A stretch of DNA of 64,000 nt, taken from NCBI GenBank assembly GCA_963930775.1, contig OZ005702.1, positions 2,294,001-2,358,000 of the forward strand. The letters are read 5' to 3'. Under the pieces are notes generated by a model, which saw only the letters and a list, made by a program, of their open reading frames with translations, made no database searches and had not been told where the DNA came from. Origin of the DNA: Cliona cf. orientalis. Lineage: Eukaryota > Porifera > Demospongiae > Clionaida > Clionaidae. This document shows, piece by piece, positions 9,686-64,000 of this stretch (its first letter is position 1; the number at the start of each line of letters is the position of its first letter). A program made the position numbers and the translations under genes.

Positions 9686-12600
9686 ATGGAGATTCTGTTG
9701 AAGATCATTCTACTTTTGCTTTTATTGTTTTCGATTGGTACCTGTGTGTTACCAACTGCTAGGGTGTATCATATTGTACCTCAAATCTCAGCATACAGAT
9801 GCCCAGTTGACTCTTGCTTGACTCTCTCCCAGTTCATTCAAAACTTCTCCACCAATGTTGCACTCAACACAACTCTAATCATTAGCGAGGGAAAACATGA
9901 TCTTTATCGATATGTACTCTCTGCATCAAATATTACTGCATTTGTCATGAAATCAGCAAACAATACCAATTACACCTCTAATCCAGTCATCACATGCACT
10001 GAACAAGCAAAATTTGAATTCACAAACATTAGCGTTCTTCACTTAAGTGGGTTGAAATTTGAAAGGTGTAATAACAGCACATTTCAGTTCATTCACAAAT
10101 TAACAATTGAAAAATCTACATTTACTAATAGCAAATCTCCCATTACATTAGCCAATAGTACAGCGACACTTATTGGAACGAAGTTTTATTTCAACTCAGG
10201 AAGCTATAATTCTGAACTATTGCAAAGATCATCTGATCATGATGTCCCAGATATACCTCCCAGAACTTCTCTAGGTGGAGCATTGATTGTAGCATGCAGT
10301 GTCATTGCAATTGAAAATTGTGACTTTGTGGGAAACACTGCAAACCTCGGTGGCGCCATCTACTCAAAGAGTAACAGCAGTATCAAAATAATGGACTCAA
10401 ACTTCACAGAAAACCATGCAAATGGATGCTCTAGTGTTTACTGTGCTGGAGGGGCCATTTTAATTGACGAAAGGGTGACAATGACTGTCAGCAACACCAT
10501 CTTTTACAACAATACCTCTGATATGGACGGTGGAGTGGCTAAAATAACGAATTCTACTCTTCTATTTTCACATAGCTCTATTCAAATGAATACTGCTAAC
10601 AACCATGGAGGAGCAGTGGCAGCATTTAGTAACAGCAACCTCACATTAATTAAATCCACCGATTTGTCCATTAACAAAGCTGCAAATGACGGAGGAGCTG
10701 TGTACTTGCATGAAAGCAATATAACCATCCATGATTGTAAAGTTTCAAATAACAGTGCAAAGCATAACGGAGGTGCAATACATGTAGCAGACTATAGCAG
10801 TATCCAAATGTATGACAGCTTACTGAGCAACAACGAAGCCCGAGAAGGAAAAGGAGGAGCACTCTATGGACGAAATTATAGCAACATGACTATTACCACT
10901 TGTGAGTTCAGCAACAATGCCGCCGAAGATGGTGGAGTTGCATGGATAATACTTCACTCTGCTCTCTATATCAGTGGTAGTATCTTTAGTGGCAATAATG
11001 CTAGCATCGATGGAGGAGTTGTATTCATTCGTAACAAGAGCATGATTTCCATTAGACATTGTGACTTCATCAATAACTGGGCAGATGATTATGGGGGAGC
11101 TGTGCGCGTCGAAAAAAGTACAGTGAACGTCAACAACTGCACTTTTTTTGGTAATAGGGCTGACTACGGAGGAGCATTAGAAGTGAACGATTGCTCTAAT
11201 GCTAGTATTTCTTCAAGTAATTTCAGCAAGAATAATGCCAAAAACAAAGGAGCTGCTATTCAGTTGTATGTAAACTGTGTAGCTGACATTAGCAATTGCA
11301 TTTTTAATTGGAGTGAAGCAGGTGATCAAGGGGGAGTTTACGGAAGAAGAAATTGTACGCTTTCGGTTAGGGATAGCTTATTCTATCACAATACTGCTGA
11401 GCATTCTGGAGCTGGAGTGTATATTGGGCATGATTCTACCATTCTGATAAATAATTGCACATTTTTGAATAGTACAGCAGATTTTGGTTCAGCAATAGTT
11501 GCTTATGTTAGATCTACTGCAATCATTACTAACAGTAATTTTACTCAAAATAGAGCAGTTCTTGAGGGTGGAGTACTTCACGCCTATAGAAACTGTTCTA
11601 TACAAATTCAAGGCAGTATTTTTACTTCAAACAAAGCAAGATCGGGAGGGGTATGTCTTGCACTATTGTATTGCAAATTCACATTCCAAAAGGACCTATT
11701 TTTCAACAATAGTGCTGACTTTGGTGGAGTACTAGGATTGCTTGTGAGGAATAACATTTCAATAACTGGAAGCATCTTTGCTCTCAACACTGCTACTCAG
11801 TCCGGGGGAGTAGTTTATGCTCAACATAGCAGAGTAGTAATTAATACACACTCAATTTTTAATCGAAGTAATGCAGATCTATTTGGTGGAGTTATTCATG
11901 CTACTGATAATTGCACTGTTATCATCAATGCGGCAAGTTTCAGTAACAATACAGCCGATGATGGTGGTGTACTATCTTTGCTAGACCACAGTATTGGCAT
12001 CATCGAAGATTCAAACTTCACCAGTAATCAGGCAAACGAGAGTGGCGGAGTAGTGTATTTGAATAAGGCTAAAGTGGGAATCTCTCACAGTACATTCAAT
12101 TTATCTAGTGCTTATAGGCATGGTGGTGTACTCTCAGCCTCTGCAGTGTCAGAAGTCAATATTACTGGATGCAACTTCAGCCACAATGCAGCTAAAGTGG
12201 GAGCAGCTCTCTCAATAGAAGAAAAGAGTACCCTGTGGTTCACATTTCATCAAGATCTCCATCAGCCTGCATGCTATGGTTCTGAGATCATTTGTAATAC
12301 CCTTAGTGCTGGAATTCTTATCTATAGTAACACAGCGTCCAGATCTGGAGGTGGAATTTATCTCAATGAAAGTAGCCTCTCTATTAGGACTGTTGAACTA
12401 AACATAAGCTGCAACAAAGCAAGGATATTTGGTGGTGGGATCCATGCTATCCATTCATCCATCAATGTTAAGAGCACTGTCACTTTTCTTAGTAATGAAG
12501 CTACATCTGGTGGTGCACTCAGTTTAAGGTACTCAAAGTTTTATGGAGGTGTATTGGATGAAGAATCTGATATGGTGCCAGTTTCTATGAACTTTATGTC

Positions 12601-15094
12601 AAATCGAGCAAATAATGGTGGGGCATTGTACATAGATCTAAACAAAAATGATGAAAATATTAATGCTGCGTGTTCTGGAAATTATTCTTCAATTAGCTAT
12701 AGTGGATGCTTCTTTCATCATGTGTCAGATGCTTTCACGATCAATTTTGACAAAAATTCTGCCAAGAATGAAGGTCAAAATCTATTTGGAGGATTGTTGG
12801 ACAGATGCGCAATTCCCAGTAACATTAATCAATCCCTACTGGAGCATAGTGGCATTGCTCACTTCAAAAGTATTAGCAACATTACCAGCTTAGATACAAT
12901 CAGCTCAAAGCCGGTTCGAGTCTGCATTTGTATAAACAGCACACGAAATTGCGATTTACGTACATATTCCATTCAAGTCAAAGAAAGAGGTAGCATACTG
13001 CTACAGCTGGCTGCTGTTGATCAGGTGTACAATGAAAAAACGGCTACAATTCTATTTGAATTTCACAATGAATCAGATGTGAAATTATCAGAGAACGAAG
13101 CTACTCAGACAATTAGTGCAGGCTGCACTAGTCTTGAATACCACATAAACGCTGTTCCTAGAGCACTACCCTATGAAGCCAAAATTTATGCTGATGGCCC
13201 ATGTGGTCATATTGGTATCTCAAAACTAACGGTCAGTATTCATGTATTTCCTTGCACATGTGTTCCTGGATTTGAGGTTGATGATAATAATAATGCATGT
13301 AAATGCAAATGTGATGAACAGCTCTTTGAGTACATAAAAGAATGTGATCTTGAAACAGAGTCAGTTATCAGGAAAGGAGTATTTTGGATCTCTACCACCA
13401 ACAAAAAGGATGGGAACTTTAGCTATTTGATCTTTCCTTACTGTCCAATGGGCTACTGCCACCCACCCAGCAAAAAAATTCCTGTAAATTTGAACGCAAG
13501 CCATGGTAATGGCTCAGATTCTCAGTGTACTGATAACCATGGTGGTATCTTGTGTGGAAAGTGTCAACAACATTACAGCTTGTCTCTCGGTAGTCTAAAA
13601 TGTATTCAATGTCATAATAAATGGCACGGAGAACTGATAGGGATTGTAATAGCTTCCTTTTTTGCTGGAATATTTCTCGTAGCCTTGATCTTGGTGCTTA
13701 ATCTCACCGTAGCTGTTGGAACATTGAATTCTGTAATCTTCTATGCTAACTTAATGTACTCTGCCAGGATTTTGACACAGTCACGGCTTAGTTTAGTGTT
13801 CATTTCATGGTTGAATCTTGAAATAGGATTTGATGTTTGTTTCTACAAAGGAATGGATGCATACGCCAAAACTTGGCTCCAGCTGGCATTTCCAGCATAC
13901 ATCATCTTCTTGGTCATAGCCATAATCTGGATCAGTTCCCGATCATCAACCTTCTCGAATCTGATTGGAAAGAGAAACCCGGTAGCAACTCTTGCTACCT
14001 TGATCCTTATATCATATTCTAGGTTTCTGCAAACCATAATCATCACACTTTCCTTCGTTAAATCAAACTGTAATGTCTTGCCATCCACAAGGTGGCTTTA
14101 TGATGCAAGTATTGTGTACTTTGGATGGAAACATGCTCTCCTATTTTTCACAGCAGTCATTATTCTCATCGTTGGCCTCCTTTATACTCTTCTCCTGTTC
14201 TCTTGGCAGTGGCTCCTTCACTGTCCAAGATCAAAAGTACTGAACTGGACTCGGAATCAAAAGCTTCACTCTTTCATTGACACCTACCATACTCCTCACA
14301 CAGCTAAGCATCGATACTGGACTGGTCTGCTTCTGCTAGCTCGAGTTATTCTCTACCTTATCTCTGCATTCAGTGCCAGTGTGTACGCTGATCCACACAT
14401 TCCACTCTTGGCAACCATCACTGTCATGTGCTGCCTGCTCCTGTTCAAGACAGTTATGATGATTAAAGTATACAGGAATTGGTTACTTAATGCAATGGAT
14501 TCATTTATGTGCTTTAACATTATCATCCCTGCCATTTTTACCTTGCATTCCTTCAACAACACAAGTATTCAAACCAAAGTGATCGACATATCTGTAGGAA
14601 TCACTGTGATCTTGCTTTGTTTCATTATTGCTTTCCATGTATACAGATATGGTAGTGTGAAGCTATACATCTTTTCTCAGAACACAAAATTTTGTCAGAG
14701 CATGACAAAATGGCTATCTTTTATTCATTCTCAAGAGAAGAGCTCAAGCAGTCCTTCTGATGGCAGACCTTTGGATGTTCTGGACAGTGTGAGACAAGAT
14801 GATCATGATGAAGCATATGATCAACATGAGGAGCCAACCAGCTCAGTGGTATCAATGATACATAGTGAGGAATCTCCATCGTCAGACTACTGTCTAAAGC
14901 TCAATGAAGCGGAGAATCAATCTGATATCAACAAAGTAAGTAGGCTCTGGCAGGAAAGAATAAAGGGTTCTACATGTGCAACTACACAGCAAGGATCAAA
15001 CAATACAAATGAAGTTGAATTGTCCTCTTACTTCTCTCCGGATGAAATCATGAGGAAACCACTTCTTGATGATGAATTTTCGTATAGCTACTAG
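9686..15094 (+). CDS. Gene A: Pmp-repeat multi-pass membrane protein, 1802 aa
   Basis: Single-exon frame from ATG 9686; the frame is open slightly further upstream but only from a TTG. Residues 1-22 form a signal peptide, followed by a head with VYHIVPQ and C..DSCLTLSQF. About residues 195-1030 carry ~30 repeats of the FxxNxAxxGGA type, as in chlamydial Pmp proteins, predicting a beta-helix. GCSSVYCAGGA near 250 is a small disulphide-loop insert. FGGLLDRC (~1035) opens a Cys-rich stalk (YADGPC, CKCKCD, LCGKCQ). From ~1316 come about nine hydrophobic segments, including CFYKGMDAYAKTWLQ and NPVATLATLILISY. A Ser/acidic tail of ~145 residues ends ...MRKPLLDDEF and a few residues. Rich in N-glycosylation sequons, so the repeats are probably extracellular. 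Likely a surface receptor or transporter-like protein; ligand unknown. Converges on B1. Confidence 0.9.
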   Translation: MEILLKIILLLLLLFSIGTCVLPTARVYHIVPQISAYRCPVDSCLTLSQFIQNFSTNVALNTTLIISEGKHDLYRYVLSASNITAFVMKSANNTNYTSNPVITCTEQAKFEFTNISVLHLSGLKFERCNNSTFQFIHKLTIEKSTFTNSKSPITLANSTATLIGTKFYFNSGSYNSELLQRSSDHDVPDIPPRTSLGGALIVACSVIAIENCDFVGNTANLGGAIYSKSNSSIKIMDSNFTENHANGCSSVYCAGGAILIDERVTMTVSNTIFYNNTSDMDGGVAKITNSTLLFSHSSIQMNTANNHGGAVAAFSNSNLTLIKSTDLSINKAANDGGAVYLHESNITIHDCKVSNNSAKHNGGAIHVADYSSIQMYDSLLSNNEAREGKGGALYGRNYSNMTITTCEFSNNAAEDGGVAWIILHSALYISGSIFSGNNASIDGGVVFIRNKSMISIRHCDFINNWADDYGGAVRVEKSTVNVNNCTFFGNRADYGGALEVNDCSNASISSSNFSKNNAKNKGAAIQLYVNCVADISNCIFNWSEAGDQGGVYGRRNCTLSVRDSLFYHNTAEHSGAGVYIGHDSTILINNCTFLNSTADFGSAIVAYVRSTAIITNSNFTQNRAVLEGGVLHAYRNCSIQIQGSIFTSNKARSGGVCLALLYCKFTFQKDLFFNNSADFGGVLGLLVRNNISITGSIFALNTATQSGGVVYAQHSRVVINTHSIFNRSNADLFGGVIHATDNCTVIINAASFSNNTADDGGVLSLLDHSIGIIEDSNFTSNQANESGGVVYLNKAKVGISHSTFNLSSAYRHGGVLSASAVSEVNITGCNFSHNAAKVGAALSIEEKSTLWFTFHQDLHQPACYGSEIICNTLSAGILIYSNTASRSGGGIYLNESSLSIRTVELNISCNKARIFGGGIHAIHSSINVKSTVTFLSNEATSGGALSLRYSKFYGGVLDEESDMVPVSMNFMSNRANNGGALYIDLNKNDENINAACSGNYSSISYSGCFFHHVSDAFTINFDKNSAKNEGQNLFGGLLDRCAIPSNINQSLLEHSGIAHFKSISNITSLDTISSKPVRVCICINSTRNCDLRTYSIQVKERGSILLQLAAVDQVYNEKTATILFEFHNESDVKLSENEATQTISAGCTSLEYHINAVPRALPYEAKIYADGPCGHIGISKLTVSIHVFPCTCVPGFEVDDNNNACKCKCDEQLFEYIKECDLETESVIRKGVFWISTTNKKDGNFSYLIFPYCPMGYCHPPSKKIPVNLNASHGNGSDSQCTDNHGGILCGKCQQHYSLSLGSLKCIQCHNKWHGELIGIVIASFFAGIFLVALILVLNLTVAVGTLNSVIFYANLMYSARILTQSRLSLVFISWLNLEIGFDVCFYKGMDAYAKTWLQLAFPAYIIFLVIAIIWISSRSSTFSNLIGKRNPVATLATLILISYSRFLQTIIITLSFVKSNCNVLPSTRWLYDASIVYFGWKHALLFFTAVIILIVGLLYTLLLFSWQWLLHCPRSKVLNWTRNQKLHSFIDTYHTPHTAKHRYWTGLLLLARVILYLISAFSASVYADPHIPLLATITVMCCLLLFKTVMMIKVYRNWLLNAMDSFMCFNIIIPAIFTLHSFNNTSIQTKVIDISVGITVILLCFIIAFHVYRYGSVKLYIFSQNTKFCQSMTKWLSFIHSQEKSSSSPSDGRPLDVLDSVRQDDHDEAYDQHEEPTSSVVSMIHSEESPSSDYCLKLNEAENQSDINKVSRLWQERIKGSTCATTQQGSNNTNEVELSSYFSPDEIMRKPLLDDEFSYSY

Positions 15095-15720
15095 CTTTAA
15101 GTATTTATCTATAGTCTGATTTTAATACAACAGTGATGAATATAGTCCTAGCTAGCTATAATATTATTGCATTTAACTGTTTGTTTTCTATAAGGTGATA
15201 GATAATGCTGTCAGTGCAAGTTCAGCCGTGGTATAATATTATTACAATAACGCAGCCCATCCTATTTACTTGGAGCTGGTGTTACGAAAATGTCACGTAA
15301 GCTATATAGTTCCCCCTCCCTTAATCTAAGGTTCTATATTATCTAGTGTATCATTTCATGTCCTTTCAGTGATCCGTTTAGTTGATGGGGAAATAGATTG
15401 ATTTATGTTTTTAACTCACTGATGCAGGATAAAATTCTGAGGCTTTGGTAGACATGTGATGTCATTAATTATTTTGTCTTTCACAACCATTATACAATTA
15501 TCAATAATATTATTGCGCATCCATGGTAGTGATACATATCATGTAATATTATTCCATAGCTAGTACTATAGTGCTGCAGCTTAATGTTCATATATACAGT
15601 AGTATAACGCAAAGCATCAATAAAATCATTGGATCTGTGAGTTTGTACTTAGCTAATCCATTATATTAGTCAGTACAAGGTAAAAGCAATCACTGTTTTC
15701 TGCTGGTAGTGAAGATTGAT
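15095..15720. other. Convergent spacer between genes A and B1
   Basis: 3' flanks of two convergent genes, copied at 48006-48840. AT-rich with TAGCTAGCTATAATATTATTG near 15150. No coding sequence is supported. The copy-2 version carries a reverse-transcriptase fragment that is absent here, so this is the empty site. Confidence 0.6.
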
Positions 15721-18700
15721 CTAGGGGATTTCAAGAACAGAGTGAGTCACTTTATGTTTAGTAGGTTGAACTGGAGCCAGGGGATGCTCATTCACCTCCT
15801 CTCCCAGCCGAGCCTGATTCTTTCCAACCAGCAAATACACATGATAGATAATTACTCCAACCAGAAGGATGAAGGTTATGATGGTAGAAATGTAGGCAAC
15901 AGCTGTCTGCTTCTTGACATCAGTTTTAAAGTCATACTGACTAAAAGCAGCGAATACAAGGAGATTGAAATAGAGCCCTGTCTCCAGCACGTCTACTATT
16001 GAATTTTTGTATGCCCTGAATCCAGATATTCCATTCAGAAAGAAGAGACCTCCAATTAAGATGATTGTTATCAAGAGAGAAGACTGAGGTTTGTTGGAGT
16101 AGGACGTAGCAATTGATGCAGTGATGTACAAGACCACCCTCACAAGCAGTAGCAAGCCAGTCCAGTAGCGATACTTACTGTTGTATGGAGCATGGTGGAC
16201 TGAGATAAAACCATTGAGCTTAGCGTTCCTTGTCCACTTGAACACCTTCCATATTGGAGCACGAACAAGCCACTGCCAGAGAAAGAGAAGAATTGTGTAG
16301 GGGACACCAATTAGAATAATCAATAGGGCTACGAGGCCAAGAGCTACATGCTTCCCTTGAAAGTATGGTACATTTCCATCAGGAAGCCACACAGTCTCTT
16401 GTGAGCCATTAGGATATTCAAGAATAGCAAAGGATAAAGCTGTGATAGTCACTGAGAGGAGTTTGGCATAAGATAGCAGGATTAATGTTGCTAGAGTTGC
16501 TAATGGGTCTCTCTTTCCAATTAGTCCAGCAAATCGACGGGAGTACTCGCTGACTATGATTACAATAATCACAAGAGAGATAATGTAGATGGGAAAAAAC
16601 AATTGAAGCCAAGTTTTGGTGTACGCATCAAGACCATCATAAAAGCAGACATCAATTCCTATGTCCAGATTAAGCCAAGCTACAAACACAGTGGGAAAGC
16701 TAGGCTCAGATGATGGAAAGAAGACGGCACTGTTAGCTGCTACGATGTTAGCGTAAAAGATGAAGCCATTGATCAGTCCAACAGCCACTGTCATGTTGAG
16801 GGCTAACAGTGCAGTCACCAACAAGAGTCCTGCTATGATGGCAGCTAGAAATATTACAACTAACACCGCAGGCCAGTGATTGTGACAAGATAAGCAATGT
16901 GAACTACCTAGAGAGAGGGTGAGGTGTCCTGACAACCTCCACACAAAACTCCACTGTGATTGTACGCACACTGCGTGTCTGCTCCATCAGGAAGGTTGAG
17001 ATTCATGCTGACATTTTCAGTTGGAGGTCGACAGTAGTCAAAAGGGCAGTTAAGATAAATGACATAACCAGGTGGGTCAGTGTCATTGATGTGAGTGATC
17101 CATGAGTTAGTGTCCACTCTTACAAGAGACTCAGTTGTCGAGTTGCAGTTAATGATATGGGGAGACAACTTTGAGTCACAATCGCATCGACATTCTGTAT
17201 TACTATCAACAGGCTGAAATCCAATTGGACAAGTGCAATCGATGAACTCTGTATACAAATGTTGTGTGGAAAGCGTGGAACTTCCACAAGGACCATTGGC
17301 AAAGAGGTTTATTGTTTCAGTGTTGTGAGGAGAGAACACATTGAATGTTATATTGGTACAGTTTATTCCTACAGTTTGAATTTGCTGTCCTTCACTAAAG
17401 CCACCATCTTGTGAAGATAGAGAGCTGGTAATATTTGCATCTACAGAATGATTGACTTGATCCACTGCAACAAGTGGTACAGTGAAAGCTTCTCCCTTCT
17501 TGACGTTGATGGTTGGTGGCTGGTAGCTGCAGTCTGGCTCACTCTCACTGTTACAAAAGCAAACTCGAACAGGCAGAGAGGATATGGTATCTAATGCTAT
17601 TACATTGGCAATGTCACCAAGGTAACTGACACCATTGTAGTGTGGTGGTATTTCTAATTGAGACTCATACACTTCAGCAAATGGACTTGGGTTACATCTG
17701 TCCAACAGTCCTCCAAAGACATTGGCTCCTTGCTCACTTGCAGTATTGCCAGAAAAGAGGATATTTATCAAAGTACGTACTTTAAAATCTTGACGAAGTC
17801 CAAGTGTTTGGATAAAGCATTCATTGTCAGGTGAGCAAGCACCAGCGTTGGTATTGTCTGCCACGTAGCTATATGGCTCCTCCATAGTTGGCATGGTTAT
17901 CTTGAAATAATATTACTGGTAGGTGCTCAGAACGACTAAATCTTGGTATTGGTTTTAGTACATACAATTTTGCATTATGTTCTAAATAAAGTCCGCTTCC
18001 ATTTTTTGCTGTGTTGTTGATGAATTGAAGAGTCCATGGTTCATATACAGCAACAGTTGAACTAGTGGCATGGATTCCTCCACCCCTCACTGCATTGTTT
18101 CCTGAAATGACACAGCTTCCCCTGACTTCAAGTTCACTTTGTTGGAGATAAATACTACCTCCACTACTGACTGTGGCTGTATTGTTGGCTACTGTTGTTT
18201 CACCATACATCATGATATTACTCTCGGTGGCTAACATTGCTCCGCCACGCCTTGCTCGGTTATTTGATAAAATGCTTACTCCAGTGAAGATCACGGTCGA
18301 TTGGAAGCTTGTGATTGCCCCTCCTTCTTCTCGAGCACCAGCTATTTCGTTCAATTGTTCTGCACAGTTCTCTAATCTTGTGTAGCCACTGAAAGTGAGG
18401 TTGCTGTTGAAAATGTAGAGCGATCCTGAATTACAGTCAAACGTATATACCATTAATAATATGTGTGGAGCCTTCTATAGTGAACATAATTCCTCCATAG
18501 CTGTTAGCTTTGTTGGCATTAATAGCTATTACATGCCGTCTCCATGAGTATACTGAACTTACCGATTAAACTTGTGTGATTGATCTTTGTGTAAGTACAT
18601 GTACCAAGCACATAATATCAGAACATTTGATCTAGTAAGCACATTACGTGCCTATTAGTTATTAAGCAATGCAAGGTAGGATTAATTTGGGCGTAACCTG

Positions 18701-18764
18701 GGTCATTGATGGCAGCTGGGTAACTTGACTGTATGACTGTAAGGTCAAGGTCACTGCGTTTGAG

Positions 18765-18910
18765 TACCAGCGTGGGAGTCCTGCCATTGAGGGCAGGTAC
18801 CAACTGGTGAGTGGGCTAGTACCAGCGTGGGAGTCCCAACCTGAGTCAGGTGCCAACTGGCAGCTAAGGCCAGCGTGGGAGTCCCGACCGTGAAGTTGAG
18901 TACCAACTGG
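18765..18910. repeat. Minisatellite, three ~50-bp units
   Basis: ACCAGCGTGGGAGTCC ... TACCAACTGG (or GCCAACTGG) occurs three times in a row within the 4.7-kb insert. No coding function seen. Confidence 0.65.
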
Positions 18911-19219
18911 AACTAGGACAGTGACATCCAGCGTTAGAAAACAAAGATATTGCTGGCGTGACCGATAAGTTACATGTGACATTCAGCCACCAATCAATTC
19001 CCCCCAAATTACCCCCAAATTAGTGCACGGAAGATACCAGATATTGTCCATGTGATATTGCCTTGCCTGCTAGGTGCAATGAGGTAGGTGATGCTGACAT
19101 GTATGCCAGATATTCTGCATTTAATCACCTGACATGGGCAAGTCTGTGAGGCAAGACCACAGCCTATGGCTATTGTGGTAATGATGTATAGTAGTGTATT
19201 TTGTAAGAGGTAGCTGCTA

Positions 19220-21115
19220 ATGTCTGAAGTTGATGCCAGCGGCAGAATTTAAGTACAATGTAGCAGTACAGTGTTGTAGTAGATACTGGGCTGCTGAGGT
19301 TTATACAGACTGTAAAATTTACATAGTGTATTGTGTTGGTATAGTGAATGCTCGGATTGACCTAACTGAGGTAAAGTGCACTGAAATGGATTATAAGTGA
19401 GGTTAATGCCAGTGGAAGAGTGTGCATACCATGTAGCAGTGTAGAAGAGCTCATTGTGGGTTATGGCTGCTGAGGTCACTGCCAGTGGCAGAGTGCAGAT
19501 ACACTGTAGCCGTGTAGCCGAGGAACTTGTGGGCTATGGCTTAGATCAATGCCAGAGGCAGGGTGTACGTGCACTGTAGCAGCGTAGCAGAGCAATTTGT
19601 GGGCTATGGCTGCCAAGGTCAATGCCAGAGGCAGGGTGCACATGTACTGTAGCGGCGTAGCAAAGCATCTAGAGGGCTATGGCTGCTCAGTAGGCGAGTG
19701 CACGTACCCTGTAGCAGCATAGTAGAGCAATTAGTGGGCTATGAGGTTATTACCAGTGGCGGAGTGCATGTACACGCCTGAAGACTGCAGTAGTGTAACA
19801 GGGCAGTTAGTTGGACTGTGGCTACTAACGTCTTTTTTTTTTTGCGGAATTAAAAGGGTATACTGGAGCCAGATAGCAGTGTGTTTAAATAGCTATGACT
19901 GCTGAGGTCTATGCCAGCGGCAGGGTTACATGCGTGAAGCTGTGCAGCAGTGAATTAAGGCTGATAAGGTTTATACCGGCATCAGTGTTAGATGAAGTGT
20001 ATACACTGTAATGATTTCACAATGCTATTAATGAGTTATGATCGCAATAGTTTATGCCAGCGGCAGCTTATAAATTGTTATATTTCTGAGTCAAGGCTTC
20101 CAGGGATTGTGCCAGTGGCAGAATTAATGTGCATATAGCAGCATAGTAGAGTGGTTTGTGAACTATGACTGCTGAAATTGATGCCAGTGGCAGAGTGCAC
20201 ATACAGTGTAGCAGCATGATAAACCAGTTAGTGGGATCTGGCTGTGCCGAGGTGTTGGGAGTTATCCGTTAGAATCCGCTCGAATTATAACTTACGAACG
20301 AAACGGCTTGTTGAACTGAATTTACTACACATCTAGAGGGCTATGCATGGCTGCTGAGGTCAGTGTCAGTAGGCGAGTGCACGTGCCCTGTAGCCGCATA
20401 GTAGAGCAATTAGGGGGCTATGAGGTTATTACCAGTGGCGGGGTGCATGTACACGCCTGTATACTGTAGACACTGTAGTAGTGTAACAGAGCAGTTAGTT
20501 GAACTGTGGCTACTAACATCTTTCTTTTTAGCGGAATTAAAAGGGTATACTGGAGCAAGACAGCAGTGTGCTTAAAGAGCTATGACTGCTGAGGTCAATG
20601 CCAGCGGCAGGGTTACATGTATGAAGCTGTGCAGCAGTGTAATTAGTGAATTAAGGCTGATGAGGTTTATGCTGGCATCAGAGTTAGAGGAAGTGTACAC
20701 TGTAATAATTTCGCAATGCTATTAATGAGTTATGATTGCAACCGTTTATGCCAGTGGCAGCTTATAAATTGTTGTATTTATGAGTCAAGGCTCCCAGGGG
20801 TTGTGCCAGTGGCAGAATTAACGTGCATATAGCAGCATAGTAGAGTGGTTTGTGAACTATGACTGCTGAAATTGATACCAGTGGCAGAGTGCGCATACAT
20901 TGTAGCAGCATGACAAACCAGTTAGTGGGATCTGGTTGTGCCGAGGTCAATGCCAGTAGCGGAGTGCACGTATGCTGTATGTACAATGTAGTGGCATAGC
21001 AGAGGAAATAGTGAGGGCCCTGGTAGCCATACCAGTGGTGGAGTCCAGATACGCTGCAGCAGCATCACAGAGCAATATGACTGCTAAAGTTTATGCTAGT
21101 GGCAGGTTAAATTAC
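19220..21115. repeat. Minisatellite with higher-order duplication
   Basis: Degenerate ~80-110-bp units built on TGCCAGTGGCAGAGTGCA, then TGTAGCAGCATAGTAGAGCA, then GTGGGCTATGGCTGCTGAGG. A larger block, 19666-20253, is repeated at 20330-20947, including non-repeat landmarks such as GCGGAATTAAAAGGGTATAC. The 76 bp between the blocks (20254-20329) are unique. This two-level organisation indicates recent unequal exchange. Confidence 0.7.
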
Positions 21116-48446: not shown

Positions 48447-48840
48447 TACTTGGAGCTGGTGTTATGAAAACGTCATGTAAGCTATAATTATTTCCTCTCC
48501 CTCCCTTCAACTTAAGGTTCTATATCCAGTGTATTATTTTCACATCCTTTCAGTGATATTTAGTCGATGCATATGGGAAATAGATTCACTGATGCAGGTT
48601 CGAAATTCTGAGGTATTCATAGGCATGTGATGTCATTAATTATTTTGTCTTTCACAAATATACAATTATCAATAATATTTGGTAGCAATAGATATCATGT
48701 ACATATTCCATAGCTAAGTACTATATATAGTGCTGCAGCTTAACTGTTCATATTATAGTAGTATAACACAAAGCATCAAATTAAATCATGGGATCTTTGA
48801 GTTTGCTAATCCATTATATTAGTTGGTACACAAGTATTAC

Positions 48841-53515: not shown

Positions 53516-56293
53516 TTTAGCCACTAGCTAGTAGATGATTGAGTGAAAGCACTGGTACTGGATAAGAATCTGTTTTCTCACGACAGTTTAGAAGCTAGCT
53601 AGCTACAATTAAGGTGTAAATCACAGGTAGTGTACACAGCTACAGGGTGCTTTCTCCACTAGCTGCAACTGACAATTCCAGTGAGAATATGTCTAAGTTT
53701 ATAAATTAATTCTCTAGACAGTTCAGAACCCCCAGGATGAGAGAGCACTACAAGTGCAAGGTGCATAACATAGGTACAGTGCATGTCAATGGCATAAGAA
53801 GATGTTTTGGAGTAGGGGGGCTGCATTCTGAGTACGTATACATTGGTTGACAAATAGCTATTAAAAATTATTTTTATCATTTCCGAAGTTCAACTGTGAC
53901 ACTCTAAATAAATCCAAAACACTTGAGACCTTACAGAAAATTAGCAACATGTACAGAATCGAGGCTACATGCATAATTGTAATAATATCCTAAAACACAT
54001 GTAGAATTATTAAAAGCAGTATAAATCCTATTCATGTGTGCACTAGTAAAATTTGAGGCTGCAGCTAGTACAGACTGAAGCTCCCCACCCCTTCCTCAGC
54101 CCCGCTGGTTCTTACGCTAGTGCTTGTACACAGTTATAAGGTGCTTTCCCCACTGGACCCCCACTGAAGCTGATAAGTCCAGTGGGAATCTGTTTCTAAT
54201 TCTCTAGACAGTTCAGAAGCTAGCAGCTATAACCTGCAGGATGAAAGAACACTACAAGGTATGCATTCCTCCATTGGACCCCAGCAGCTGCAGTTGACAT
54301 GAAACTAATAAGTCTCATACTTGCTCCACATTAGTTCATTTTTCCCCCTAATGTATACAGGATACCTACAAAGAAATAGCAATAGCTAATACTATCCACT
54401 TAATAGTATTGCAAACTGCACAAGAACATACAAAGTCAATGAGCAGTGACACGAGCAAACCACCATAATCATAAACCACATATTAGTTTAAGAGGAGCTA
54501 TATAGGATTGGGGCCCTCTTCCTTGAATGATTATAGCTATACATTATCCATAATATAGTGGCAACTTGGGGAATTATTTGCCCTGCAGGTTTAGCTAGTA
54601 TACGTATGGCTGCAGTACTACAAAATTTAATATTAGTTAATGGCAATAATAATAACTATTATGTTGTAGTACGAGCCTGAGACAAGTACAGCATATGATC
54701 GAGGGTGAAGCCTGGGGTGAATAACCCGATAAACTATCTGAGGGCAAAGTTAGAGAGCAAGTTCAATGGTTCAGAAAGCAAGTTCAGTGGTTTGTAGACT
54801 AAGGCTTTGCCCCTGGTTAAGTTGATAAAATTAATCATGCTAACTACCATAATAATATGGAATTCAGTCATGCACATGATTGTCATGTGATCTCTGAAAA
54901 ACATCTGCTTGCATGTGATTGTCACAACTGTGTGTTCTTAGCTTACTAATAGCTACTCTTGATAGTTCTTGAGAGTACGAACATATGAGAATTGTGAAAG
55001 AAATCATGATTTTGCACGCGGTAGAAGTCTAGCTACTTTCTGCATCTATATATATAATTATAATAATATTATTATTATAGTAATAGTATCCCCATAATAT
55101 TGATAATAATATAGTATCTTATGGGAATTATCAGCAGCAAAATAATTTTCAGTGAACTGCTTTCTACAAAGATTATCATGTGGAACGTCTGGACAATACG
55201 GCACTGTACAGACTAAAGAACTAATTGTGATACAATATGACTGATACCAATTAAATCAGAGCTCTGAGAGCACATACCCCACACGCACTTACAATGCGCA
55301 TAATAATAATAATTGTGCATAGGTGACCGCTGAGCTCGAGCATGCGCAGTCGCATCAGCACTAGTAGAGTGGGTGTGGTCGATAAACCACAGGAATGCTG
55401 AAACAGAAAATGCATGATTTGTAGGGCTAGTAAACCATAATTTTTCAGCAATTTGAAGCAGTGGAAACCAGTTTTTCACTAACATCTACCAATTCGTTGT
55501 GCTTACAGCATGTAGCTATAGTTGCCCAGAACTTGAGATCTAACAATTTTCGTGCGGACGACCATAAGGGGTGTATCCAAAATGTTAACTAAACCTGTAA
55601 TTTTGCACTGATTGGCAGTCCTAGAATGCTATCATGCCCCTTCTCTGATCGGGAAGACACACATATTATTATGCTTGCTTGCTCTAAATCAGATTAGACA
55701 TTCATGTCAGGCAGGTGAAAATCTACGTACATGTAGCTGTTATATTATTATAGTAGCTACTTTCAAGCTGGTCAGTTGGCACCTGAGTGTATCTTAGCTA
55801 TTGAAAACTGTGACATGCAGATTTTTTTTACTCCTTTCCTGTATTGGTGCCATACTACATGTAAGTGACAATACACATAGAGACTGATTAAATTCTAGAT
55901 AGCATAATACTAACAAAGCTGAAATCATACTCAAGATATAGCTACGGAATTCATTATGCTAAAGGTATAGCTAATGGTATAACAGCTACGGTAAACAACA
56001 TTGCTCAGCTCCTCCAGATTATACATAATATCTGAATACCCAATGGTATATCTCCTAGTAATTATTTCTTCCTGGCAAGGAGCTAGTGTATTAGCTAATA
56101 ATCTTGACTGTCAAGGTATGAATTTACTATCTGCATTCGGGGTCATTTGGCAAGCATAGGACATGATATTGTACAACTAGTGCAGAGGAATGCTCACAGA
56201 CCAGAGGATCGACTTGTAAATACGCACAAAAAATTAAAGTAGGTAATTAGCTAATTATTTAGTATTCAAAAGTGAATTGATATATCAGTCAAG
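53516..56293. other. Upstream region of B2 (duplicate of 25063-27848)
   Basis: About 2.8 kb separating B2 from gene F. Keeps the GAGCATGCGCAGTCGC motif (55338-55353). Small indels relative to copy 1 include a ~25-bp addition near 54370 containing AATAGCTAATAC. No coding sequence is supported. Confidence 0.5.
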
Positions 56294-59200
56294 CTACAGT
56301 TTTTCATCAAGCAGTGGCTTCCTGATACTATCACCCTGTGAAGTGTAACAAGATGATGCACTTTTCTTAGTATAGGATCTGATCGGTGCACATGTACCAA
56401 AATCTTCACTTTCCTGCTGCTCTATATTCGCCTTATTACTTTGTACTTGATTCTCTCCTTCAGTAAGCTTTAAGCAATAGTCTGACGATGGAGATTCCTC
56501 ACTATGAACCATTGATACCACTGAGCTGGTTGGCTCCTCACATTGATCATAAACTTCATCATCTTGTCTCAGACTATCCAGGACATCCAAAAGTCTGCCA
56601 TCTGAAGGACTACTTGAGCTCTTCTCTTGAGACTGAATAGATGATAGCCATTTTGTCATGCTCTCATAAACTTTAGTGTTCTGAGAAAAGGTGTATAGCT
56701 TCACACTACCATATCTGTATACATGGAAAGCAATAATGAAATAAAGCAAGATCACAGTGATTCCTACAGACATATCCATCACTTTGGTTTGAATACTTGT
56801 GTTGTTGAAGGAATGCAAGGTGAAAATGGCAGGGATGATAATGTTAAAGTACATAAATGAATCTATTGCATTAAGTAACCAATTCCTGTATACTTTAATC
56901 ATCATAACTGTCTTGAACAGGAGCAGGCAGCACATGACAGTGATGGTTGCCAAGAGTGGAATGTGTGGGTCAGCGTACACACTGGCACTGAATGCAGAGA
57001 TGAGGTAGAGAATAACTCGAGCTAGCAGAAGCAGACCAGTCCAGTATCGATGCTTAGCTGTGTGAGGAGTATGGTAGGTATCAATGAAAGAGTGAAGCTT
57101 TTGATTCCGAGTCCAGTTCAGTACTTTTGATCTTGGACAGTGAAGGAGCCACTGCCAAGAGAACAGGAGAATAGTATAAAGGAGGCCAACAATGAGAATG
57201 ACGACTGCTGTGAAGAATAGGAGAGCATGTTTCCATCCAAAATACACAATACTTGCATCATAAAGCCACCTTGTGGATGGTGTGATGCTACCAGTAGATT
57301 TGACAAAGGAAAATGTGACAATAATTGTTTGCAAGAATTTAGCATAGGAGATAAGTATTAAGGTAGCAAGAGTTGCTACCGGGTTTCTCTTTCCAATCAA
57401 ATTCGAGAAGGTTGATGATCGGGAACTGATCCAGATTATAGTGATGACCAAGAAGATTATGTATGCTGGAAAAGCTAGTTCTAGCCAAGTTTTGGTGTAT
57501 GTGTCCATTCCTTCATAGAAGCAGACATCAAAGCCTATGTCAAGATTCAACCAGGCAATGAATACTGAACTAAACTGTGACTGTGTCAAAATCCTACCAG
57601 AGTACACTATGTTAGCATAAAAGATTACAGAATTCAATGTTCCAACAGCTACAGTGAGATTAAGCACCAAGATGAAGGCTACGAGGAATATTCCAGCAAT
57701 AAAGGATGCTATGATGATCCCTATAAGGAGTCCATACCACTTCTTATGGCATTTGATGCACTTTGAACTACCTAGAGACAGGCTGTAGTGTGGTTGACAT
57801 TTCCCACACAAAAGTCCGGCATGATTATTAGCACACTGAGCATCTGATCCATTGGTTTGACTTAACTTAACGAGAATCAGTTTATCAGGTGATTGGCAGT
57901 AGCCCATTGGGCAGTAGGGAAAGAACAGGTAGCTAAAATTCTCGTGTGTGTCAGTGACAGTAATCCAGAATACTCCTTCTCTCTCAACTGAATTCTTATC
58001 GGGATCACATTTTTGCACATAGTTGTAGTTTAAGAGCTGTGGATCACACTGACACCTACATTCTTTGCCACTATTATTATCAGTTAAGTAGACAAGTCCA
58101 ATTGCACATTTACATTGCAGTACCTTAACATTTACAGCTAGCTTTGATATACCTTTATCACTACATGGGCCATCTGCATAAACTGTGGCTTGATAAGGTG
58201 CTTCTCTGGGATGGGCTGTAATGTGGTAGCTAATGTTTGAGCACACTGCACCAATAGTTTGAGTGGCTTGACTCACAGGTAGTTCATAGTCATCAATGCG
58301 GCTTTTAATTGTAGCTATTACCTTGTGGTTGACCTGATCAATGGCAACTAACTCGAGCAAAATTGTATCTCTATGTTTGACCTCAACAGCCTTTGATCGT
58401 AGAGTACAGTTAGGTTTATGGTTTTCACAGAAGCACACTCTAACAGGTTTTGAGCTGGTTGTATTCAACATGGTAACATTGCTGATGCTTTCGAATCTAG
58501 CAATACCAATTGATGTCATCTGGGATTGATTTGCAATAAGTATACTCTGCGTGTTGGAAACTGTGCATCTATCCAATAAACCTCCAAAGAGATCATCACC
58601 TGTATACTTGGCACGGTTTTTATCAAAGTTAATCGTGAAATCTTCAGACAAATTTTCAAAGAAGCACCCACTGGTAGAACATATAGCAGTAATATTTTCA
58701 TCGTCATCAAATTTCACATAAATTGCTCCTCCATTGTCAGCCACATTAAAAGCAAAATTCATACTAGTCACAATACCTTCACGCTTTATATCATATAGCT
58801 TTGAATTTGAGTTCCTCAAACTGAGTCCACCACCACCAGATACAGCTTTATTATGGACAAAATGGACCATATGTTTTACCGTGATAGATGAATTGATAGC
58901 ATGAATTCCACCACCAAATGATCCAGCTTTGTTAAAATTTATAGTAGTGTCTATCCCAATATGTATGCTACTTTCAAGAAGATAGATCCCACCTCCATGC
59001 AACATTGCTGTGTTATTACTGATCAAGATTTCATCAGCACCTATAATTGTTGAATTGGTACTTAATAGGTGACTTAGAGTCAGATTGAGATAATCTTGAT
59101 AAGGAATGAATGATAGGTTAGATTTTTCTATTAGTGTCAAAGCTGCTCCCAGTTTTGCTGTACCATAACTGAAGTTACTTCGAGCAATATAGACTCTAGA

Positions 59201-61666
59201 AGCAGACGATGCTGAGAGAATTCCTCCGCGTATACTAGCACAAGATGAATTAAATCTGCTAGAATGAACACTTAAGCTGGCATCGTTCAAATAGACAACA
59301 CCACCATTGCTGGTTGCCTGGCTGTTGACAAAATCTGAGTATTGAATGAATCCAATACTGCTGTCTAACAACGATAGGACGCCACCGAAATCAGCCGTGT
59401 TGTTGCGAAATGTTGCTGTACAAGTGGTAATGGTGGTATCACCATTAGCATGAATAACACCTCCAAAGAGCCTAGCACTATTGAAACTAAATGTTGTACT
59501 CTTCTTGACTACGACTTTGCTACTGTGAGCGTAAACCACTCCACCAGATTGTGCTGAATTGTGAGTGAAGGTTCCTCCAGTGATACTTACATTACTCCTT
59601 CCAATTAACCTTAGTACTCCACCAAAATCTGCACTATTGTTGGAAATCAAGGAGTTTTGGAAAGAGACCTTACACTCTATTGTTGCAACACATACTCCAC
59701 CTGATCGTGCTTTGTTCAAAGAAAAATTACCATTTTGAACTGATATGGAAGACTTTTTATAAGCATGGAGTGTTCCACCCTCAACAGTTACTTTATTCTC
59801 AACAAAGATGCTATTAATAATGGTTGCAATAGTTACAATAAAGACTTGTACAGCTCCTCCAAAGTCGGCTGTATTATTCAGAAATTGGCAGTTTTCTATG
59901 TGAGCATAGGAATACTTCCCTACAAACACTCCACCTCCAGAGAAGCCAGCTGTACAATTATCTACTAAGCTATCAACAATAGAAATATTACATTGCTTTC
60001 TTGCACTCACAGCTCCCCCAGAAATAGTTACGTTATTCCGAATAAAAGTACAATCACTGATGATGACCTCACTTTCTACATACACATGAATCGCAGCTCC
60101 ATTACTATTGGCTCTGTTTCCATTAAAGCTACATGATTTAACACTAGCGTTGGAGCACTCACTCACATCTATGGCTCCTCCATAGTCAGCTTCATTATTA
60201 TCAAGTTTGCAATTACTGATGTTCATCTTGCTGTGTTTTACTATCATCACTGCTCCTCCAGTATCACCATCTGCCAGATTGTTTCTAAAGGTACTGTTTT
60301 TAACAGAAATGGTACTGTTGTTACGTACATATGCAACTCCTCCTTCAGCACTAGCCAAACTCATGCTAAAATGGCTATTGATGATATGCAATGCAGAGTT
60401 AAGATCTATTTGTACAACCCCCCCATTTGAAGCAACATTATTAAGAAACTTAGAATAATTGCTGATAGTTACAGTGCTGCTATTATGTCCATATAATGCT
60501 CCACCATTGCCCTCCAGAGCACTATTATTCTCGAACGTGCTATTATTCACTTTGATTGCGCTATTATGCACTTCGTGGATAGCCCCTCCATCTCTCTTAG
60601 CATTGCTAAATAAGATGATACAACCACTGATGTTAACATTGCTTTCGTATAAGTACACAGCTCCTCCATTTTGATCAGCTTTATTGTTATTCAGTAAGGT
60701 TTCCTTAAGGGTGAGACTGCTATTGTTAAATGCTGCTATTGCTCCTCCATGTCTACCGGCAGTGTTCATGTAAATAAAGCTATGGAAAACCTGAAGGGTA
60801 GCATTAATAATGACTGCAATTCCACCATCATAATCTGAAGTATTGTTAAAAAAAGTGGTGTGGCTTATAATCATCATACTTCTTTCGCTGATATAAACAG
60901 CCCCTCCAGCGCATTTCCCACTAATGCAACCTTCTGCGTGGTTGTGTCTGAAGGTTGAATTGGTAACAGTGATACTACTATTGAATTCAACAAAGAGAGC
61001 TCCACCAAATTTGGCAGTATTCTCATCAAAGGTACAATTTTTGAAAATGAGAGTGCTGTATGTTACCATCAATGCTCCACCTTGGGTATTTTTGGAGGAT
61101 TCACCTGGGAAGTCAATAGAATGATGGTGGGAAGCATTAATTCCAAAATTGAAATGAAAGTTTGTTTCAAGTATACTTCCATTACCGTTATTTATTGCTA
61201 TAGGAGATTTAACGAATGACGAGTACTCAATATTTAAGTGCTGAATTAACTCAAACCTGCTACCATTACATTTCTCAAACTTTAAATTTTTGAATTGAAC
61301 ATTATCAATATTGATGAAGTTTAAGTTTCCAGATTCAGTACAAGTGATAATAGGATTAAAGGCACCATCTATTGATTGCATAATAAACTTGGAAACATTT
61401 GATACAGAGAGTCTAACATCAAGAATATTACGTTCTCCAGTAACCAGCAATGTGATATTTGTGGCAAGAGAGTGACGTGAGTTCCAATTCATGGCGAACT
61501 CAGAGAGAGTCATATTCAGGCAAGGACTTTCTTGGCACTTATATGGTAAGGTTTGAGAAGGTACGATATTATAGACCTCACCAGACACGTAATAGAATAA
61601 ACCATGCTTTGATAGTAATAGAGGTAAGAGAAGCATTGCCAAATGCAGTTTCAAGAAACATAGCAT
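56294..61666 (-). CDS. Gene F: Pmp-repeat multi-pass membrane protein, 1790 aa
   Basis: Start at ATG 61666 (two codons upstream is only a TTG). Signal peptide MLCFLKLHLAMLLLPLLLS, head with VYNIVPSQ and C.ESPCLNMTLSEF. Repeats ~195-1030 with loop GCISGKCAGGA (60901-60940), FGGLLDRC, and a stalk with FCENHKPNC, YADGPC, CRCQCDP and LCGKCQ. Nine membrane segments from ~1310 include CFYEGMDTYTKTWLE. The tail has SSSSPSDGRLLDVLDSL, EESPSSDYCLKL and ...SIRKPLLDEKL. Close to gene D over the C-terminal half of the repeats and the stalk, less so at the N terminus. Intact, single exon. Divergent from gene G. Confidence 0.9.
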   Translation of the reverse strand: MLCFLKLHLAMLLLPLLLSKHGLFYYVSGEVYNIVPSQTLPYKCQESPCLNMTLSEFAMNWNSRHSLATNITLLVTGERNILDVRLSVSNVSKFIMQSIDGAFNPIITCTESGNLNFINIDNVQFKNLKFEKCNGSRFELIQHLNIEYSSFVKSPIAINNGNGSILETNFHFNFGINASHHHSIDFPGESSKNTQGGALMVTYSTLIFKNCTFDENTAKFGGALFVEFNSSITVTNSTFRHNHAEGCISGKCAGGAVYISERSMMIISHTTFFNNTSDYDGGIAVIINATLQVFHSFIYMNTAGRHGGAIAAFNNSSLTLKETLLNNNKADQNGGAVYLYESNVNISGCIILFSNAKRDGGAIHEVHNSAIKVNNSTFENNSALEGNGGALYGHNSSTVTISNYSKFLNNVASNGGVVQIDLNSALHIINSHFSMSLASAEGGVAYVRNNSTISVKNSTFRNNLADGDTGGAVMIVKHSKMNISNCKLDNNEADYGGAIDVSECSNASVKSCSFNGNRANSNGAAIHVYVESEVIISDCTFIRNNVTISGGAVSARKQCNISIVDSLVDNCTAGFSGGGVFVGKYSYAHIENCQFLNNTADFGGAVQVFIVTIATIINSIFVENKVTVEGGTLHAYKKSSISVQNGNFSLNKARSGGVCVATIECKVSFQNSLISNNSADFGGVLRLIGRSNVSITGGTFTHNSAQSGGVVYAHSSKVVVKKSTTFSFNSARLFGGVIHANGDTTITTCTATFRNNTADFGGVLSLLDSSIGFIQYSDFVNSQATSNGGVVYLNDASLSVHSSRFNSSCASIRGGILSASSASRVYIARSNFSYGTAKLGAALTLIEKSNLSFIPYQDYLNLTLSHLLSTNSTIIGADEILISNNTAMLHGGGIYLLESSIHIGIDTTINFNKAGSFGGGIHAINSSITVKHMVHFVHNKAVSGGGGLSLRNSNSKLYDIKREGIVTSMNFAFNVADNGGAIYVKFDDDENITAICSTSGCFFENLSEDFTINFDKNRAKYTGDDLFGGLLDRCTVSNTQSILIANQSQMTSIGIARFESISNVTMLNTTSSKPVRVCFCENHKPNCTLRSKAVEVKHRDTILLELVAIDQVNHKVIATIKSRIDDYELPVSQATQTIGAVCSNISYHITAHPREAPYQATVYADGPCSDKGISKLAVNVKVLQCKCAIGLVYLTDNNSGKECRCQCDPQLLNYNYVQKCDPDKNSVEREGVFWITVTDTHENFSYLFFPYCPMGYCQSPDKLILVKLSQTNGSDAQCANNHAGLLCGKCQPHYSLSLGSSKCIKCHKKWYGLLIGIIIASFIAGIFLVAFILVLNLTVAVGTLNSVIFYANIVYSGRILTQSQFSSVFIAWLNLDIGFDVCFYEGMDTYTKTWLELAFPAYIIFLVITIIWISSRSSTFSNLIGKRNPVATLATLILISYAKFLQTIIVTFSFVKSTGSITPSTRWLYDASIVYFGWKHALLFFTAVVILIVGLLYTILLFSWQWLLHCPRSKVLNWTRNQKLHSFIDTYHTPHTAKHRYWTGLLLLARVILYLISAFSASVYADPHIPLLATITVMCCLLLFKTVMMIKVYRNWLLNAIDSFMYFNIIIPAIFTLHSFNNTSIQTKVMDMSVGITVILLYFIIAFHVYRYGSVKLYTFSQNTKVYESMTKWLSSIQSQEKSSSSPSDGRLLDVLDSLRQDDEVYDQCEEPTSSVVSMVHSEESPSSDYCLKLTEGENQVQSNKANIEQQESEDFGTCAPIRSYTKKSASSCYTSQGDSIRKPLLDEKL

Positions 61667-63124: not shown

Positions 63125-64000
63125 ATGCAGAATAATATCATGAAGTCAACTCCACAACCCGTGCAGACATCACTGAATTTCCCTTCACTTCTCATCTTTC
63201 TCTTACACATACTTCATGCTTCTGGCCATGGAAAGATATATAATATTGTGCCAACTCAAATCTCACCACATCCATGTCCAGTAGATAATTGTCTGACTCT
63301 TACTCAATTCACTGAAAATATCAGAAATTATAATTATACTCCCGCCTCAAAAATGATACTGTTCATTAGCGGAGAACACCATAACCTTAGCGTTGACTTT
63401 TCCATATCAAATGTTGCTGAATTTGTTATGCTATCAACAAATTACACTAGGTCTTACAATTTGAATACTATTACATGTACTGAATCTGCAAACTTTAATT
63501 TCATTAATATAAGGAGAGTTCATTTCAAAGGCATAAAATTCAGTAATTGCAGCAATAATAGGTTTGAATCAATACAAGAATTAGCTATTGAACACTCTAC
63601 ATTCGTCGATAGTACATCTCCCCTAACAATACTTAACAGTAACGCAAATGTGACTGAAACTCATTTATTTTCGAACTCTGGCAGCTTTAAACGAAACTTT
63701 AGACTGTTACAAGAATTACTAAAATATTTGGATCAACCTCTGGAAGCTTCTGTAGGTGGAGCAATGATTCTCTCACATAGCTTCGTTACTGTTGAACAAT
63801 GCAATCTTAGTGGAAATACTGCAAGCTTTGGTGGAGCTATCTTCTCAGAAAATACTACACTTTCAGTTTTACAGAGCAATATTTCAAATAATATTGCTAG
63901 AGAGAATGGTGGAGCAGTGGCTGTATCTTACAATAGTAGTGTTGTACTTTCTTTCACCTCTTTGTATAATAATCAAGCTAATAATGGAGGAGCTATGTAC
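63125..64000 (+). CDS. Gene G: 5' part of a Pmp-repeat membrane protein (runs off the window)
   Basis: ATG 63125 opens a frame with no stop for 292 codons to the window edge. A hydrophobic leader (SLLIFLLHILHASG) is followed by the family head (IYNIVPTQ, C.VDNCLTLTQF), the ITCTES..F motif, and then GGA repeats starting at about residue 212. After FGGAIFSEN it goes directly to TLSVLQSNISNN, skipping the GCxSxxCxGGA loop and about two repeats present in A, D, E and F. The rest lies outside the window. An in-frame ATG at 63140 is an alternative start. Transcribed away from gene F. Confidence 0.85.
   Translation, partial: MQNNIMKSTPQPVQTSLNFPSLLIFLLHILHASGHGKIYNIVPTQISPHPCPVDNCLTLTQFTENIRNYNYTPASKMILFISGEHHNLSVDFSISNVAEFVMLSTNYTRSYNLNTITCTESANFNFINIRRVHFKGIKFSNCSNNRFESIQELAIEHSTFVDSTSPLTILNSNANVTETHLFSNSGSFKRNFRLLQELLKYLDQPLEASVGGAMILSHSFVTVEQCNLSGNTASFGGAIFSENTTLSVLQSNISNNIARENGGAVAVSYNSSVVLSFTSLYNNQANNGGAMY

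Follow-up and report, generated by a model that had tools for sequence, protein, structure and literature searches.

What kind of protein is encoded by the giant intron-free genes that crowd one short segment of the genome of the sponge Cliona cf. orientalis, and what would such a protein be used for? The question was examined for a window of 64,000 nucleotides (positions 2294001-2358000 of contig OZ005702.1, contig 14 or C14 below), whose gene copies are labelled A to H. A preliminary description of the nucleotide sequence had noticed eight full or partial copies, each combining a beta-helix ectodomain, a Cys-rich stalk and a nine-pass membrane module, and had likened the cluster to recognition gene complexes. 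The analysis was extended from the window to the whole assembly (216.8 Mb, 149 contigs; one genome). The array was confirmed, although the eight copies did not stand alone; they formed one array of a family found on all 19 chromosome-size contigs. We lean with moderate confidence towards reading this family as a large repertoire of sponge cell-surface recognition receptors with one shared signalling module.

The copies A, C, D and E were intact, and each was a single uninterrupted frame from signal peptide to stop of about 1410-1800 residues, so that the intron-free giant proteins were borne out. B was nearly intact, F and G were broken, H was cut by the window end, and a tail relic was found in addition to the eight copies. 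The features are listed below.

9686-15094, plus strand: copy A, intact, with signal peptide, beta-helix head, Cys stalk, nine-pass module (13637-14719) and tail.
15262-28074, strand not given: duplicated block, twin of 48442-56516 (93-94% identity).
15721-25065, minus strand: copy G, broken; open pieces 24607-23231, 18453-17869, 17894-16908 and 16971-15721.
18523-23231, strand not given: insert of 4.7 kb inside G, missing from the twin F.
23280-24065, minus strand: ten 78-bp DNA repeats coding 26-residue rungs in G.
27870-28074, minus strand: tail relic, a ninth trace consisting of the tail end only.
29459-33685, minus strand: copy E, intact, of a distant subfamily; module 29621-30718.
34370-39770, minus strand: copy B, whole except for a frame break at about 39465-39500 between the signal peptide and the rest; module 34727-35809.
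42663-48005, plus strand: copy C, intact; module 46557-47639.
48442-56516, strand not given: duplicated block, twin of 15262-28074.
48844-53524, minus strand: copy F, broken; open pieces 53524-51605, 51126-49285 and 49281-48844.
51734-52526, minus strand: ten 78-bp DNA repeats coding 26-residue rungs in F.
56294-61666, minus strand: copy D, intact; module 56642-57724.
63125-64000, plus strand: copy H, start only, extending past the window end.

The broken copies F and G were twins carried by the two duplicated blocks, and the duplication and decay noticed earlier were hence both evident. The joints of the insert in G overlapped by 4 bases in F, which makes the insert resemble a mobile-element insertion. 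The tail relic is explained by the duplicated block, whose far end falls within the tail of D. The next same-strand member, at C14:2360881 with a frame of 1745 residues, is most likely the 3' part of H. A further member was located at C14:2285456-2286553 on the minus strand, about 7.4 kb to the left of the window, with a frame of 1405 residues and a module 95% identical to that of E; hence, the array reaches beyond the window on the left side too.

The Pmp-like nature of the ectodomain was supported by profile searches. PF02415 (Chlam_PMP) exceeded its cut-off of 20.6 bits in five of the six window proteins scanned (A, 74.4; B, 43.6; C, 23.7; D, 66.1; E, 22.2 bits), and the PF13229 beta helix exceeded its cut-off in four (A-D). 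The sixth protein, which was the C-terminal half of F (F1), had no match at all. The head was built of right-handed beta-helix rungs of about 26 residues, with 26-32 GG-type anchors in A-D and 11-14 in E according to two counting rules, and the anchor spacing in A-D was mostly 25-28 residues. The repeat described as FxxNxAxxGGA was present in the exact form FxxNxAxxGG[AV] 2-8 times per head in A-E and was absent from the H fragment. The ten 78-bp repeats in both F and G correspond to 26 residues per rung, indicating that rungs multiply as DNA units. N-glycosylation sequons in the heads exceeded composition shuffles in all 21 genes measured (z 1.7 to 6.8); these were 21 of 25 sampled genes, of which a text anchor dropped five and A was measured separately. 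The heads would probably be glycosylated. One member at C5:9095859-9096950, partly in locus L014, had an open frame of 5471 residues around its membrane module, far longer than the others, and is possibly a fused or rung-amplified copy.

The stalk and membrane part were evaluated in 55 modules, which together with 56 tails represented a sample of the whole family and were read from about 297 kb of loci (294,625 bases and the locus L059). The stalk contained 14 Cys columns and the first outer loop contained one (C238), each Cys being present in at least 96% of the covering sequences. C162 in the stalk and C238 were both present in 55 of 55 modules, and the conservation of the two suggests that a further disulfide perhaps links the stalk to the first outer loop. 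A model built from six close copies had a mean predicted local distance difference test (pLDDT) of 39.6 and was useless; it was replaced by an AlphaFold2 model from the 55-sequence alignment, with a pLDDT of 82.4 and a predicted template modelling score (pTM) of 0.77. The model helices and the loop charges agreed on nine passes with the N-terminus outside and the tail inside, so that the nine-pass module proposed earlier was supported by structure prediction. With loop bounds taken from the model, the mean K+R/D+E counts were 2.9/0.6, 6.4/1.0, 2.4/0.0 and 3.7/0.5 for the inner loops and 0.4/3.5, 1.6/3.0, 0.0/0.8 and 1.4/1.7 for the outer loops. Helices one and two followed each other nearly without an intervening loop, and the loop between the fourth and fifth helices carried a sequon in 19 of 55 modules. 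Moreover, buried polar and charged residues were conserved, with R406, N208 and N464 invariant (55 of 55 modules) and E458 present in 50 of 55. The motif CFYxGxxAYxKTWLQ, described as common to the copies, was exact in three of the seven copies that reach it (A, C and G), and the other four differed at one to three places.

The module was compared with known families and folds. In Pfam searches of the 55 members at E <= 1, no entry named the module; DUF7630 was matched in 19 of 55 (best E 7.9e-5), and the rest were scattered weak matches. Sequence searches of the PDB yielded either no match or chance matches to haem proteins (E about 0.6), and Foldseek searches with the model of the module gave no match at E <= 0.001 in the PDB or in the viral library. 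ABC exporters, which headed the PDB fold matches (E 0.068, TM-score about 0.1), were rejected as relatives. The G-protein-coupled receptor reading was likewise rejected, given nine passes, no 7tm entry among the 23 Pfam families matched by the 55 members at E <= 1, and no PDB fold match at the threshold above. No relative was confirmed in scans of viral contigs or, with the membrane-module alignment, in 84,980 prokaryote species genomes (GTDB); both relied on short peptide patterns, which can miss distant kin, and the head was not searched in the latter. One lead was the uncharacterised Megaviridae protein A0A5J6VI06 (284 residues; probability 0.99, E 0.054, TM-score 0.54 by target and 0.32 by query). 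This model-based likeness may hint at a core that exists outside sponges.

The cytoplasmic tails shared short motifs. [ST][VIT]V[EDSGN][LVMIP], usually in the form PTxSVVE[LVM], occurred in 35 of 56 tails compared with 0.9 in shuffles, and the PTxSVVE type was present in 8 of the 15 subfamilies defined by a 60% identity split. The LLDxxD-type motif [FL]LDx[ILV]D was found in 30 of 56 tails (0.04 in shuffles), and among the 54 tails that reach 30 residues, 18 had a C-terminal P[LFI][LIH] ending (1.7 in shuffles). These counts are not independent, because the copies are related, and the shuffle control flatters the motifs, since they were picked by eye from the very tails being counted. The motifs may be docking sites for shared cytoplasmic partners. 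A Tyr inside the PTxSVV motif was seen in a few tails only (L005, L047 and L058), and motifs like the immunoreceptor tyrosine-based inhibitory motif are not claimed.

The size of the family was estimated from short membrane-module patterns. The WLNL[DE]xG-type pattern occurred genome-wide at 705 places versus one for the reversed pattern, the RYWTGLLLL-type pattern at 490 versus none, and the CFY-type pattern at 61 versus four. On chromosome 1, two patterns gave 75 and 71 places with 59 in common, corresponding to about 90 copies by capture-recapture. Scaling (705 x 90/75) gave a rough genome total of about 850 copies, a figure that rests on one chromosome and on non-independent patterns, misses divergent copies and includes broken ones. 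The family was thus far from single-copy in this genome. Three protein searches with different members yielded matches that were all below E 1e-75 among the best 113 of 1527, 112 of 1611 and 117 of 1591 candidates, and these merged to at least 292 distinct loci on C1 to C19, the 19 chromosome-size contigs. Among these 292 listed loci, 192 had a frame of at least 1100 residues with no stop in the match, 63 had frames of 600-1099 residues, 32 had frames below 600 residues, and 18 had a stop inside the match. A neighbour lay within 20 kb for 165 of them, compared with about 15 under random placement, and adjacent pairs within that distance were on the same strand in 105 cases and on opposite strands in 14; hence, the family lies largely in same-strand tandem arrays. 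DUF7630 (PF24633) exceeded its cut-off at at least 32 genome places among the best 150 of 812 candidates scored, and 25 of these lay in open frames of at least 960 residues. Two arrays, at C16 6.77-6.88 Mb and C7 2.28-2.40 Mb, had stalks among the best DUF7630 matches and represent another subfamily or two.

A sister group without the head was also found. The locus L059 encodes a protein of about 580 residues with a signal peptide, a Cys stalk and the same membrane part, and no helix. Compared with the 55-module profile, it matched at a probability of 98.7 over about 400 columns (96.2 for the membrane part alone), whereas one reversed and ten window-shuffled controls reached at most 0.3. It likewise ends in RPLLNEY. 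A genome search with L059 gave at least 78 matched stretches among the matches listed (77 scored of 1822 candidates); 40 of the 78 spanned at least 500 of 567 residues and were stop-free, and the others were broken or partial, some being adjacent pieces of one gene. Headless tandem arrays of intact and broken copies were located at C3 3.34-3.53 Mb, C15 5.34-5.45 Mb, and C5 8.66-8.73 and 10.40-10.45 Mb. Since these relatives keep both the stalk and the membrane part, the stalk and nine-pass core form a unit, to which the arm was either added or from which it was lost.

The divergence of heads and modules was then compared by the rates of nonsynonymous (dN) and synonymous (dS) substitution, with omega denoting dN/dS; the values are those of the pairs listed, which were pre-filtered for shared words. 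In all six pairs among A, B, C and D, the head dS was 0.53-1.52 versus a module dS of 0.08-0.23 (module dN 0.02-0.04), and the sliding identity jumped at the start of the membrane part, in B-D already within the head. The low dS along with the low dN points to recent sequence exchange and not to constraint alone, as would be given by gene conversion that keeps the A-D modules nearly uniform. The locus L013 showed the same relation to A-D in four of four pairs (module dS 0.27-0.39, head dS 0.94-1.10), and the module was closer than the head in L035-L037 as well. The membrane module was the most constrained part, with omega of 0.13-0.36 over all pairs. Omega was about 0.36-0.75 for heads in close pairs (head dS 0.08-0.35), mostly 0.2-0.6 for stalks and very scattered (0.1-2.4) for tails; the near-identical pair L030-L033, with hardly any changes between its members, did not fit these ranges. 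When nine disjoint pairs were pooled, omega in the head came to 0.53, and rung positions ranged from 0 (glycine) to 0.91. Purifying selection was thus uneven, and it held the membrane module more tightly than either heads or tails. From these rates, the head would thus appear relaxed or mildly diversified at exposed places, and not clearly driven.

A recognition or sensing repertoire fits best with the signal peptide, the sequon-rich arm, the disulfide stalk, the constrained polar core, the tail motifs and the hundreds of diverged tandem copies. The surface location, the binding and signalling activities and the recognition role itself are what we infer from this architecture. In the proposed mechanism, an N-terminal cap and stacked, glycosylated right-handed beta-helix rungs would form a long outward binding arm, which the 14-cysteine stalk would join to the nine-pass module. 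The arm may bind a particle, microbe, symbiont or neighbouring cell, and the stalk would relay this binding to the membrane module, which would be the part for signalling or gating that all members have in common. The tail would recruit shared partners via [FL]LDx[ILV]D, PTxSVVE[LVM] and the C-terminal PLL. Diversity would arise as genes duplicate in tandem or in blocks, rungs of 26 residues are gained or lost and the heads diverge, and gene conversion together with strong purifying selection would hold the membrane module uniform. A bolder form of this proposal, which we put forward only tentatively, is that the family constitutes an undescribed class of animal surface receptor, with a Cys-stalk and nine-pass signalling core of unassigned fold, either headless (about 580 residues) or armed with a beta helix in about 850 variants, and that it sorts food, microbes, algal symbionts and self. 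A role in allorecognition is possible.

Several observations weigh against the recognition repertoire. The stretch just outside helix one was slightly K/R-rich (1.3/0.2), contrary to the charge rule, and the PTxSVVE-type motif was missing from 21 of 56 tails. The uniformity of the module between A and C came partly from block duplication. In the C13 array (L021-L026) the module dS was not below the head dS, indicating that conversion is not universal, and E was saturated against A-D throughout, with no recent exchange with them. Omega above 1 was sought in head segments of the pairs and in pooled rung positions and faces, by pairwise and pooled dN/dS without a likelihood site model, and none was found (maximum 0.91); such values were confined to some of the tails, over 60-100 codons, and to the stalk of the pair L030-L033, which had almost no changes. 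An arms race is hence not demonstrated. The resemblance to recognition complexes proposed earlier therefore stands for expansion, duplication, decay and uneven constraint, and it does not extend to a head dN/dS above 1. Finally, beta helices may serve plain adhesion.

This last point leads to an alternative that we regard as possible though unlikely, in which the proteins are adhesion or capture glycoproteins. The arms would hold food particles, mucus, matrix or neighbours, the membrane part would be mainly an anchor with endocytic signals in the tail, and the copies would give dose and breadth, not self/non-self recognition. Pmp rungs are adhesive in chlamydiae, the long heads are rich in sequons, the PL[LIH]-type tail ends (18 of 54, 1.7 in shuffles) could be sorting signals, and no head in the pairs had omega above 1. 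However, the module is the most constrained part and has conserved buried charges, beyond what an anchor needs, and a headless group exists.

The same conserved charged and polar residues inside the helices would also suit a gated channel or transporter, which we consider quite unlikely. In that case, the nine-pass core would be a distant TRP/Flc-like channel, with the arm and stalk as a mechanical or chemical gate sensing flow, touch or solutes. The nine passes and the outside N-terminus are as in Flc proteins, and of the six genome matches to PF06011, all below threshold, three fell on short headless genes (best E 0.0045, 22.5 bits versus a cut-off of 28.5). Nevertheless, none of the six reached the cut-off, PF06011 was matched by none of the 55 headed modules at E <= 1, L059 had no hmmscan match at E <= 10, and the fold search of the PDB stayed empty at its threshold.

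Genomic drift or selfish expansion, whereby intron-free genes prone to recombination would spread without much function, most copies being on course to decay, is very improbable. The many broken copies, the block duplication and the mobile-element-like insert in the window are consistent with it, as are the 18 of 292 listed loci with a stop in the match and the 32 with frames below 600 residues; however, 192 of the 292 were open over at least 1100 residues, the membrane-module omega was about 0.2 in close pairs, and the Cys columns and tail motifs were kept across subfamilies. Bacterial contamination or a recent transfer of a Pmp adhesin was rejected in spite of the head matching a chlamydial repeat family, given members on all 19 chromosome-size contigs, a secretion and membrane architecture of eukaryote type, and the lack of a confirmed relative of the membrane module in the prokaryote genomes, where the head was not searched.

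The flanks of the array contained other elements. An exon-like stretch at window positions 7660-7941 (minus strand) resembled a Death domain (PF00531, E 0.0011, 19.5 bits, just below the cut-off of 22.6). The frame at 2-205 (minus strand), which we take to resemble a sponge NLR exon, gave a chance-level Pfam match only. The array may thus have a gene for a Death-domain receptor at its side. Diverged repeats at 2944-5448 (a 393-bp unit in 2.2 copies and a 650-bp duplication at 88%) are probably mobile-element debris. Rfam gave no match at the gathering threshold within the 64-kb window.

A sponge filters microbes in vast numbers, lives with symbionts and rejects tissue that is not its own, and which of its surface molecules make these choices is an old question. 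If the bolder form of the proposal holds, few receptor families of any animal would be larger relative to genome size, with arms that diversify while gene conversion keeps the membrane part uniform. The accessible text of the genome report for odCliOrie1.1 gives 217.17 Mb, 307 scaffolds and 25,502 protein-coding genes (PMC12639293). If the recognition reading is right, the 705 pattern matches, broken copies included, would mean beside these annotated genes that hundreds of genes in this sponge encode a single, so far unstudied type of receptor whose membrane domain has no name. The family would offer countable candidates, a shared core for structure work and tail motifs as bait for signalling partners, and because the headless relatives carry the core on its own, they make the module's own function testable. 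The architecture was not described in the titles, abstract openings and passages of the open-access literature, a scope outside which most subscription papers fall and in which "not found" does not equal "not known".

The family shares features with several known systems. Chlamydial Pmp adhesins form many paralogues, and their GGA(I/L)- and FxxN-type rungs of a right-handed beta helix are like those of the sponge heads. Unlike them, the sponge proteins have a Cys stalk, nine alpha-helical passes, sequons and a cytoplasmic tail; no C-terminal autotransporter beta-barrel was matched by Pfam in the six window proteins, which have the nine alpha helices instead. DUF7630 may correspond to the stalk next to the membrane, but the entry covers this piece only and assigns no function, and in the window it reached 11.6-14.3 bits in B-E versus a cut-off of 27, with no match in A and F1 (none of six over the cut-off). 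Flc proteins have nine passes and an outside N-terminus. The fungal TRP-like/Flc family (PF06011) is therefore alike in pass number, N-terminus side and the faint matches on headless relatives, and unlike in its ectodomain and in having no match over the cut-off anywhere in the genome. Clustered membrane proteins with variable ectodomains also make up the Hydractinia Alr allorecognition complex; the Alr proteins are single-pass and Ig-like, and the sponge family is known here from one genome. In a broader analogy with recognition multigene families, the sponge family has many tandem paralogues, both open and broken; diversifying selection on the ectodomain was not seen, the head omega being about 0.36-0.75 in close pairs and no pooled rung position exceeding 1. 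The expanded SRCR proteins of sponges are reportedly a large lineage-specific receptor set read as a recognition repertoire. The available part of a report on Dysidea avara describes 126 bona fide NLRs and 230 NACHT-domain genes, likewise a large lineage-specific set read in this way (PMC12909245). The domains of the NLR and SRCR sets are unrelated to those of the present family, which combines about 850 copies, broken ones included, with one membrane architecture and single open frames, and which, as counted by pattern with broken copies included, is several times larger than the Dysidea avara NLR set.

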